Shown here: positions 16,233 to 61,853 of the stretch, piece after piece | Position numbering within the stretch: the first letter of the stretch is position 1 | Layout of the letters: the number at the start of each line of letters is the position of its first letter | From: Desulfomicrobium macestii | GTDB taxonomy: Bacteria; Desulfobacterota; Desulfovibrionia; Desulfovibrionales; Desulfomicrobiaceae | DNA length: 64,000 bases | Reading direction: 5' to 3' | Assembly (NCBI RefSeq): GCF_014873765.1 | Contig: NZ_JADBGG010000006.1 | Coordinates: 62,001-126,000 of the forward strand | Program-made: the position numbers and the translations under genes | Notes under the pieces: model-generated | The model's database searches: none | What the model was told of the DNA's origin: nothing | What the model saw: only the letters and a program-made list of their open reading frames with translations

Positions 16233-17003
16233 CTAGATCAGGCCCGAGGCCAGCCCCATGCCCAGCGCCAGAAGCATAGCGCCGACCAGTAGCCGCACGG
16301 TCTGAATCGTCATTTTCTTCAGTACCTTGCGGCTGTAATGCACCCCCAGGGAGGCTGACAGGGTGGCGGCGACGACAAGTCCCGCGTTGTCGGTGATCAT
16401 GTGCGAACCGGGCATGCCCGCATAGACGCCAAGGCGGGTCACATCGACCACGCAGGCCAGGACCACGCCCGTGGCGATGAAGGCGTCCTTGCCAAGGCCC
16501 GCGCCGAGCAGGAAGGCGCTGCGGAAGGCGCCCTGGTTGCCCGACAGACCTCCGAAGAAGCCGCTGACCACGCCGCCGAGGGGCAGCCAGGCGGCCGGGA
16601 TGGCCTGCCTCTTCCCGCCGCGCAGTTCAAGGACGGCGAAGAAGACGATGAGAACCCCCACCAGCAGTTTCACGGGCGTGACGAAGAACTGCCCCCCGCC
16701 CAGGGAGTATGAAAACAGCGGGTCCAGGCCGGAAACCCCAACCAGGACCCAGGCCCCGGCGAAGCTCGCCACCAGGGCCGGCAACCCGAAGCGCAGGGTG
16801 ACGCCCAGGTCGGCCTGCCGCCCGAACAGTGTCAGTTTGAAAAGGTTGTTGGCGAAGTGCACCACCGCCGTGACGGCCACGGCAGTCTCGAGGGGGAAGA
16901 ACAGGGCCATGACGGGCGTGAGCACCGTGCCCAGCCCGAATCCCGAAAACAGGGTCAGCCCGGACACGGCCAGACTGGCCAGACAGATGACGACATACTC
17001 CAT
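16233..17003 (-). CDS. TauE/SafE (TSUP) family sulfite/sulfonate exporter-like permease
   Basis: A 256-residue protein with about eight TM segments and the internal repeat typical of the TSUP family (GFGLGTVLTPVMALFFP at the N-terminus; GGVVSGFFGGLSGNQGAFR in the second half). Members move sulfite, thiosulfate or organosulfonates across the cytoplasmic membrane. The start at 17003 (MEYVVICLAS) has AGGAAG upstream; the open frame beyond it is antisense to the DsrE-like gene. It is divergent from that sulfur-trafficking gene, so the pair may share regulation and substrate. Confidence 0.87.
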   Translation of the reverse strand: MEYVVICLASLAVSGLTLFSGFGLGTVLTPVMALFFPLETAVAVTAVVHFANNLFKLTLFGRQADLGVTLRFGLPALVASFAGAWVLVGVSGLDPLFSYSLGGGQFFVTPVKLLVGVLIVFFAVLELRGGKRQAIPAAWLPLGGVVSGFFGGLSGNQGAFRSAFLLGAGLGKDAFIATGVVLACVVDVTRLGVYAGMPGSHMITDNAGLVVAATLSASLGVHYSRKVLKKMTIQTVRLLVGAMLLALGMGLASGLI

Positions 17004-17207: not shown

Positions 17208-17528
17208 ATGCAAATCCTTTTGATCCTGTCCAGCCACGACCCCGAAATCAAGTGGAACGCCGTCAGGTTCGGCAATTTCCTGCTGACCGAGGGCGAGGAC
17301 GTGACCATGTTCCTGAACGGCCCGGCCGTGGATCTCTTCGCCGGAGACAGCCCCACCTTCCCCATCGCCGAACAGGCCAAGCTCTTCGCCCTGAGCGAGG
17401 GCGTACTCGTCGCCTGAGGCAAGCGCATGGGCATCCACGGCGTGGATGCGAGCGAACATGTCAAGCTTTCGAACATGAAGTTTCTGTACGAACAGCTGCA
17501 AAGTGCCGACAAGATACTCAACTTCTAA
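17208..17528 (+). CDS. DsrE-like protein with in-frame TGA, probable selenoprotein
   Basis: The frame from ATG 17208 runs 69 codons to a TGA at 17415-17417, then continues open for 36 sense codons to TAA at 17526. Both halves belong together: the first (MQILLILSSHDPEIKWNAVR, TMFLNGPAVDLF) is the DsrE/DsrF alpha-beta fold; the second (GIHGVDASEHVKLSNMKFL) is its usual C-terminal half. The TGA falls after GVLVA, exactly where this family carries its redox cysteine (often CGxC); the second cysteine position is Arg here. A hairpin with bacterial SECIS features follows. The host must decode Sec because hysA in this window needs it. Sec would act as a sulfur- or selenium-transfer or redox centre. 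The alternative is a pseudogene by Cys-to-stop mutation. No strong Shine-Dalgarno site is seen. Confidence 0.7.
17431..17449 (+). promoter_or_regulatory. Candidate bacterial SECIS hairpin of the DsrE-like gene
   Basis: GCATCCAC and GTGGATGC form a perfect 8-bp stem with a GGC loop. The loop begins 21 bases after the TGA codon and starts with G, which agrees with the published bacterial SECIS rules as I recall them (a guanine in the first two loop positions, loop roughly 16-37 bases from UGA). Confidence 0.6.
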
Positions 17529-60308: not shown

Positions 60309-61853
60309 TTAGTCAATGTTGACAACGTGTTCTTCACCGGTCTCAGCGTGCAGCACGTGCACGGCACAGCCCAGTCACGGGTCGTAGGAGCGCACCAGGC
60401 GCCCCACATTAACGGGATTCTTGATGTCGGGAACCGGCACACCGATGAGGGCTTCCTCGATCGGGCCGCGCTGTCCCATGTCATCCCTGGGGTTGGCGTT
60501 CCAGAGAGTCGCGGACACGATCTGATAGTTCTCGATCTTCTTGTCCTTGATCTTCAGGAAGTGCAGCAGTGAGCCGCGGGGAGCTTCCGTGAATCCGGTG
60601 CCTTCTGCGGCGTCCGGAATCTCGGACTTGACGTAGGTCTCGGCTCCGGGCTGAACCTGCTTGAGCCATTTTTCAACGGCCACTGCGGTAAGCCAGGTTT
60701 CTTCAGCACGAGCCACGTGGCGGCCCATGATGGAGAAAGCCTTGTCGCCCAGATCGCGGAAGTTCTTGGCTTCGATGCCGTAAAGTTCCTTGAGCAGTTT
60801 CTGGCCAACGGGGCTGAGCTCGGGGTTCTGGACCCACATGCGGGCCAGCGGACCGACTTCGCAGGGCTTGTCCTTGTAACGGGGAGCCTTGACGAAGCTG
60901 TACGCACCGGGTTTGTCCGGGTTGGGATTCGTTTCACCGACGCTGTAGTGCAGGCCGCCGGGAGCGGAATGGTCAAAGAAGGAATGTCCGACATATTCCT
61001 TGACCAGCTTGGAATCGAATTCCTCGTCCTTGCCGTCGATATATACGCCAGGCTTGAGCAGGAAGGTCTTGTAATCATCGTCTTCGGGGAAAACGCCGAA
61101 GGCGATGACGTTCTTCCAGCCGATGCCGGTCTCGAACAGATCCGTGTAAACGGAACCCAGGGTGTAGATCAGAGGCAGATATTCCTCGATCACGAACTTC
61201 TGGACTTCCTTGAAGCGGGCCGCGTATTCCGCGACTTTGTCCGCCGTGGGAATCTCGGTTGCACCGCCCACGACCATGCCCTGAACATGAGGCATGCGAC
61301 CGCCGAACATGGCGACCATCTCATGACAGATGCGGCGGATTTCAAGCGCCTTCAGGTACTGGTTCAAGCCGTAGGTGTTGGTTGCATCGGCCTTGGCCCC
61401 GTCCTTGATGCGATCCGTCAAAAGATCCGCATTGGCGTAACGGGGAACAAAGGGAGAGACATCAGGACCCTTGACGTAATCCAGGGCGGCCAGGTGATAG
61501 AAATGCAGAATATGAGACTGCAGATAGTTGGCGCCGAAGATCAGGTTACGGGTGATGCGGCCGTTGGTGGTTACTTTGACGCCGAAGGCGTCGTCCTGGG
61601 CCATGACGGAAGCCGTACAGTGCGCCGTGGGGCACACGCCGCAGATACGCTGTACGATCTGGGAAGAATCCCTGGGATCGCGGCCGCGCAGAATCTGCTC
61701 GAACCCGCGGAACATTCCGCCGGAACACTTGGCATCGACGACCTTGCCGTCCTTGACTTCAACCTCAATCTTGAGATGACCTTCAACCCGGGTCAACGGA
61801 TCGATGGAAATCTTAACTTTCCCGTCAGCTGCGGGAGTAGCTGCTTGTGACAC
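60309..61853 (-). CDS. hysA: Periplasmic [NiFeSe] hydrogenase large subunit, selenocysteine-containing
   Basis: A 514-residue catalytic subunit. The N-terminal Ni-site motif RICGVCPTAHC is at residues ~68-78. The C-terminal motif DPUxxCxxH contains selenocysteine: the codon is TGA at 60375-60377 (residue 493), followed by LGCAVH and a 15-residue tail VLHAETGEEHVVNID that the protease removes. A gene finder that stops at TGA would lose the last 22 residues, including two active-site ligands. A SECIS-like hairpin follows the TGA. The enzyme takes up or evolves H2 in the periplasm with cytochrome c3 as partner. The hysB stop is 15 bases upstream. Confidence 0.97.
60347..60363 (-). promoter_or_regulatory. 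Candidate bacterial SECIS hairpin of hysA
   Basis: CGTGCA and TGCACG form a 6-bp stem with loop CGTGC, which begins 18 bases after the TGA and has G as its second base, in agreement with bacterial SECIS features as I recall them. Confidence 0.6.

Follow-up and report, generated by a model that had tools for sequence, protein, structure and literature searches.

The question raised by this locus is whether a short gene interrupted by an in-frame TGA encodes a selenoprotein and, if so, what selenocysteine (Sec, U) could do in a protein that carries no cysteine at all. The gene lies in a 64,000-nucleotide stretch of DNA from Desulfomicrobium macestii (the whole of which is referred to herein as the window), and the host is probably a sulfate-reducing bacterium. 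The usual explanation of selenoproteins is that they make better redox catalysts. DsrE-like selenoproteins were described in the first-pass annotation as having been reported before, and they were: two from the Sargasso Sea in 2005 (PMC1088965), one from Desulfovibrio vulgaris in 2006, and two classes in the GOS survey of 2008 (PMC2398784), with later reviews listing them as well (PMC9312934, PMC13188914). In the accessible parts of these sources, UxxC is the only motif tabulated for such proteins (PMC1088965, PMC9312934, PMC13188914, PMC2398784), and the functions of such selenoprotein families are described in a 2026 review as largely uncharacterized (PMC13188914). The features of the locus are as follows.

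17208 to 17528, plus strand: gene for a predicted Sec-containing DsrE-fold protein of 106 amino acids, with ATG at 17208 and TAA at 17526-17528
17415 to 17417, plus strand: in-frame TGA, kept in relatives, the predicted Sec codon (residue 70)
17424 to 17426, plus strand: CGC, Arg73, at the partner-Cys site, identified by comparison with residue 73 of relatives
17431 to 17449, plus strand: predicted SECIS hairpin, stem 17431-17438/17442-17449 (8 bp), loop GGC at 17439-17441
16233 to 17003, minus strand: divergent TauE/SafE-family permease gene (PF01925, 64.5 bits), listed here as a neighbor of the gene and not as a component of its system

The frame contains a single TGA, at codon 70. Read through with C in place of U, the 106-residue product matched the Pfam DsrE family (PF02635) over residues 3-106 with 29.5 bits (cut-off, 22.7), while the 69-residue truncation scored 14.2 bits. 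The best of five AlphaFold2 models, built from an alignment of 48 sequences, had a pLDDT of 95.3 and a pTM of 0.88 (the mean pLDDT of the remaining four was 88.9, 72.7, 70.8, and 69.2); in it, a strand (66-70) ends at Sec70, where a helix (71-77) then begins. The closest solved structure was YchN (1jx7; Z 16.8), followed by a Sulfolobus DsrE-like protein (Z 16.1), TusD (2d1p_A; 14.6), and DsrE (2hy5_A; 14.5), with all 106 residues aligned to YchN, TusD, and DsrE, so that on the best model and these matches the protein has the DsrE/YchN fold. In a profile alignment, the first Cys of the YchN CKTC motif is paired with column 70 at a weak E-value (0.042), in keeping with the earlier claim that the TGA occupies the position of the family's cysteine; this residue-level match was seen for YchN alone, and around DsrE-Cys78 the structural alignment with DsrE gives residue ranges only. 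A search of solved structures with the single window sequence yielded no relevant match, and an NCBIfam scan of the 106-residue protein up to E 1 yielded none, TIGR03527 (YedF) included. A sigma-70 promoter scan gave no match on the plus strand, and nothing around the gene came close to an Rfam gathering score. The predicted product is a single-domain selenoprotein of 106 residues with the DsrE/YchN fold.

Conservation of the TGA was followed in several sets of genomes. A pattern scan of named genomes recovered 123 relatives, of which the best 80 were kept; since the scan patterns leave out the Sec codon, these relatives were not selected for TGA. The codon is TGA in every one of the best 80 of 123. 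A family search of 22 genomes found a match in eight. Beyond the window, this search gave six full-length copies from the same genus with one TGA each; two shortened copies (L008 and L011, the latter being the second copy in the window genome) also have the TGA, and a distant match (L009) has Cys. A search of 395 genomes of the phylum found matches in 75, 86 in total, with TGA in 66 (three with further stops) and none in 20; the sequences of G261, G058, G389, G394, G075, G362, G149, G184, and G124:C166 were not fetched. After identical sequences were merged and L002 (the locus of the window itself), L023, L042, and L050 left out, 149 distinct sequences comprised 134 with TGA, 14 with Cys, and one fragment (L012b) with neither. 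The named-genome set overlaps with the other locus sets (L004 and L117 are the same match). On a tree of 144 rows, from which L008, L011, L012b, L052b, and L153 were additionally omitted, at least four switches between Sec and Cys are counted, the tree having few columns and many weak forks.

The protein is conserved on both sides of the TGA: dN was lower than dS on both sides in eight of nine relatives compared with the window, and in the ninth (L010) the value 5' of the TGA was not computable. Decay of the frame in homologues, which had been named as evidence to the contrary, does occur, namely in L023 (an extra TGA and a TAG), L024 (a TAG in the 5' part), L042 (a broken frame), L050 (a fragment in G217 that lacks the 5' part and has Arg at column 70), and a fragment beside L012. 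Viral contigs contained no relative, and plasmids only three Natrinema records with 35% identity. The second copy in the window genome (L011 1516-1773; C38:27772-28044) has UGKC, a motif for which no paper on selenoproteins was found, and a SECIS; in this form, common to L008 of G012, ~16 residues replace the first 36. It is possibly a relict.

The hairpin begins 13 nucleotides past the TGA and, as originally described, has an 8-bp stem and a loop with G in first place. Although its folding in the window is by itself unremarkable (z -1.70; equaled in 13 of 200 shuffles), comparison across relatives makes it significant. A stem of 7-8 bp (G-T pairs allowed) is found in 75 and a GGN loop in 79 of the best 80 of 123 relatives. 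Across a covariation alignment of 81 sequences (75 distinct, giving 600 cells for the 8-bp helix), 89.2% of the cells were paired, compared with 80.6% in shuffled and 34-52% in slid alignments. Changes on both sides of a pair occurred in 45 cells of the 75 distinct sequences, compared with 13.3 when shuffled. That such double changes are spread over four of the eight pairs is not special, since 104 of 500 shuffles reach as many, and the outermost pair is formed in 15 of the 75 sequences. Relative to synonymous-codon shuffles, which preserve the protein sequence, the mean folding z was -1.67 for 134 TGA genes and 0.00 for 14 Cys homologues; because the aligned rows are related, neither the pairing nor the folding statistics are independent trials. 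By its conservation, its compensatory changes, and its GG-first loop, the hairpin is a bacterial SECIS at the level of sequence.

The window genome contains selA, selB, selD, and the gene for tRNA-Sec, selD itself having one TGA. This bears out the expectation that the Sec machinery must be present, which had been drawn from hysA; that gene is indeed in the window (60383-61649, minus strand), with RICGVC at 61649 and, at 60383, a DPULGC motif with an in-frame TGA, which we take to be that of a [NiFeSe] hydrogenase large subunit. It is most improbable that the TGA is a true stop, leaving a 69-residue product or a decayed gene: the chance level of the lone hairpin and the decayed copies among relatives are what such a reading can draw upon, and they are outweighed by a TGA present in all of the best 80 of 123 relatives within a protein conserved on both sides, by the covarying SECIS, and by the complete Sec machinery. 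Given the conserved TGA, the covarying hairpin, and selA, selB, selD, and tRNA-Sec in the genome, the gene encodes, as far as comparison of genes can tell, a selenoprotein, and the DsrE-like selenoprotein that the first-pass annotation considered likely is upheld.

What sets the window protein apart is the residue three positions after Sec. Its motif is UGKR, it contains no cysteine, and the second Cys of the pair is replaced by Arg (codon CGC), as was noted at the outset. Of the best 80 of 123 relatives, 37 have Cys at residue 73, 35 have Leu, seven have Ser, and one has Ile; the published UxxC motif is thus present in 37 and absent, together with the partner Cys, in 43 of these 80, nine of which have no Cys at all. 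At least eight changes at residue 73 are counted among Sec forms on the 144-row tree (few columns, many weak forks), suggesting that the partner Cys was lost through several independent changes. Since 43 of the best 80 of 123 do without it, a UxxC selenenylsulfide mechanism cannot be general. A Cys at position 7-9 was considered as a replacement for the lost Cys73 and rejected: by raw counts it occurs in 31 of the 43 relatives without Cys73 versus eight of the 37 with it (best 80 of 123), but a sign test on a tree of 99 Sec sequences found two supported independent pairs, with p = 1 throughout.

Other Sec forms of DsrE occur in the phylum. A second large clade, mostly of 103 residues, retains UxxC, with 28 UGVC and two UGTC sequences (L044 (second gene), L049, L053-L059, L061-L067, L069-L080, L099, and L100). 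In a small separate group, UKKA replaces UGxC (L046 1440-1754 and L052 1448-1762, in reverse-strand numbering); each UKKA gene is adjoined by a Cys DsrE gene, that of L052 having a broken 3' part.

The neighborhood of the gene was compared in 91 stretches, 58 of which extend 3 kb on each side, with crude gene calls. In the window, the gene is followed by a fatty-acid-hydroxylase-family gene and then an ECF sigma factor gene, and the TauE/SafE permease gene is divergent from it. A functional pairing of the two had been suggested. The divergent neighbor stands, for the window and L117, but as a fixed partner TauE/SafE was rejected: among six congeneric loci for which upstream sequence is available, it is divergent in these two only (L118 has a TauE fragment downstream, and L084, L085, and L086 have none), and besides the L118 fragment it lies within 2 kb in six of 91 stretches, in differing orientations. 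The TauE profile was made from six of these genes and may miss distant ones. As the window genome has nine TauE genes, very roughly one would be expected nearby, so a mild excess is possible.

Two other contexts are stronger than the TauE/SafE pairing. In Desulfobulbus-type genomes, a tandem-DsrC gene lies 24-110 nucleotides upstream (L152, L154, L157, L158, L178, and L181) or, in L155, two such genes lie farther off, 2.3 kb upstream; a rhodanese gene is upstream in five of these seven loci, and selB is convergent ~0.8 kb away in L154, L155, L157, L158, L178, and L181, the contig of L152 ending before that point. Families were assigned on L158 as an example (SelB by NCBIfam, 356 bits; DsrC by Pfam, 131 bits). 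The genes at L158:6511-7977 and their equivalents in L152, L154, L155, L157, and L178 encode ~220-residue proteins with two DsrC domains; L181 has one tandem-DsrC gene only. This context is limited to one lineage, and the window genome has DsrC in its ordinary form only, on another contig. In Humidesulfovibrio-type genomes (L131, L140, and L145; families by Pfam on L145), the gene is preceded immediately by an EtfQO-type gene and followed by an ETF-domain gene, with another predicted frame intervening in L140, and YedF is found 2.0-3.2 kb downstream (confirmed by NCBIfam in L131 and L145); the window genome has YedF elsewhere. Because the tandem-DsrC and EtfQO loci represent two lineages, they count as two contexts, not ten. 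In two genomes selA is within ~4 kb (L119, on the contig of L089, and L088, which also has selB ~5 kb away), and the majority of the 91 stretches have no selA, selB, or YedF neighbor. Nitratidesulfovibrio-type loci (L133, L134, L135, L136, and L139) share one upstream gene family, the L133 member of which is a Na/Ca exchanger by Pfam.

How might a lone selenol work? UGA codon 70 would be decoded as Sec by SelB and tRNA-Sec through the hairpin 13 nucleotides downstream, and in the model Sec70 would sit where the family's sulfur-binding cysteine sits. Its selenol may bind a single chalcogen atom, of sulfane sulfur or perhaps of selenide, in the form Se-S(H), and hand it on to an acceptor, by analogy with DsrE-Cys78 and TusD, which use cysteine. 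As the window protein has no other Cys, it must be a one-Sec carrier or nucleophile, and resolution would be supplied by another protein or a small thiol. A lone selenol at a site of the DsrE-Cys78 type could, by the same analogy, transfer a sulfur group with no need of a resolving Cys, and this would suit the window protein. That the protein is a one-selenol carrier of sulfur (or selenium) of the DsrE/TusD/YchN kind, its chemistry being presumed, is the reading we prefer, at about even confidence. According to the available text of two studies, Allochromatium DsrE-Cys78 binds sulfur, which it then donates to DsrC-Cys111, the penultimate Cys of DsrC being the acceptor (PMC3397948), and Cys67 of the type II DsrE of cable bacteria takes sulfur from TusA, the complex then giving it to DsrC (PMC13293266). 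A narrower version, in which the lone selenol of this clade passes an Se-S persulfide to DsrC-type carriers in the sulfur relay of sulfate reducers, by group transfer and not UxxC redox chemistry, is tentative and on balance somewhat unlikely. The penultimate Cys is absent in all 11 tandem-DsrC proteins aligned, so that any transfer of sulfur to these proteins must differ from the known one.

The same neighborhoods also lend themselves to other uses of the selenol. The protein might serve selenium supply in place of a sulfur relay, its selenol acting as a carrier of selenide, or of Se(0) derived from selenite, for SelD or as a buffer of it; selB is convergent ~0.8 kb away in six loci, selA is within ~4 kb in two genomes (with selB ~5 kb away in L088), and YedF, which NCBIfam names a selenium-metabolism protein, is 2.0-3.2 kb downstream in L131, L140, and L145. 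We nonetheless consider this unlikely, as most of the 91 stretches lack all three neighbors, the rhodanese and DsrC-type neighbors point to sulfur, and a selenium-dependent carrier would be missing just when selenium is short. To a similarly low degree, Sec70 might run a one-Sec cycle that reduces peroxides, disulfides, or polysulfide, the electrons coming either from a thiol outside the protein or through an ETF-linked chain. The EtfQO/ETF context of L131, L140, and L145 fits redox chemistry equally well, and surveys, in their accessible portions, group DsrE-like selenoproteins with thiol-based redox proteins (PMC1088965 and the 2006 D. vulgaris survey). With the partner Cys absent in 43 of the best 80 of 123 relatives, however, the usual UxxC redox pair is gone, and the DsrE proteins characterized in the available text of PMC3397948 and PMC13293266 are sulfur transferases.

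Should a cysteine-free Sec DsrE prove to work as a chalcogen carrier, selenium would take part in the sulfur trafficking of sulfate reducers. A survey that requires UxxC would miss about half of the clade (43 of the best 80 of 123), and lone-Sec genes of this type are at risk of being annotated as 69-residue fragments. Since the protein is small and predicted to be well folded, the carrier idea can be tested directly. The accessible literature on selenoproteins, DsrE, and sulfurtransferases, including that on Desulfobulbus and Desulfobacterota, yielded neither a lone-Sec DsrE nor a DsrC/SelB context.

Among known systems, YchN of E. coli (1jx7) is the best match in fold, and column 70 aligns, at the weak E-value of 0.042, with its first CKTC Cys; YchN differs in having Cys for Sec and, three residues later, another Cys. 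DsrE of DsrEFH (2hy5) and TusD of TusBCD (2d1p) are alike in fold (Z 14.5 and 14.6), but the window gene has no adjoining DsrF/DsrH-type genes: none of the ten neighboring proteins scanned matches a DsrE/F/H family (Pfam, E 0.001), one of them matching no family. DsrEFH type II (PMC13293266) shares a DsrE subunit with one active residue and an occurrence in sulfate reducers, but it has Cys67 and a three-gene cluster, and no "seleno-" word appears in the accessible text of that paper. YedF (TIGR03527) has a DsrE-like domain and is linked to selenium, but it is a TusA-DsrE protein of two domains (~200 residues), whereas the window protein has one. The nearest counterparts are the DsrE-like selenoproteins themselves, with which the window protein shares the DsrE family, Sec at the active Cys column, a SECIS, and a Deltaproteobacterial host, and from which it differs in having UGKR and no Cys where the tables, in the text available, give UxxC. 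Judging from L135 and L136, which are relatives from Nitratidesulfovibrio, the D. vulgaris member probably belongs to the same orthologous group; no D. vulgaris title is among the best 80 of 123 relatives. Thus, the DsrE-like selenoprotein family is already known, and the copy without the published UxxC motif is a variant of it.
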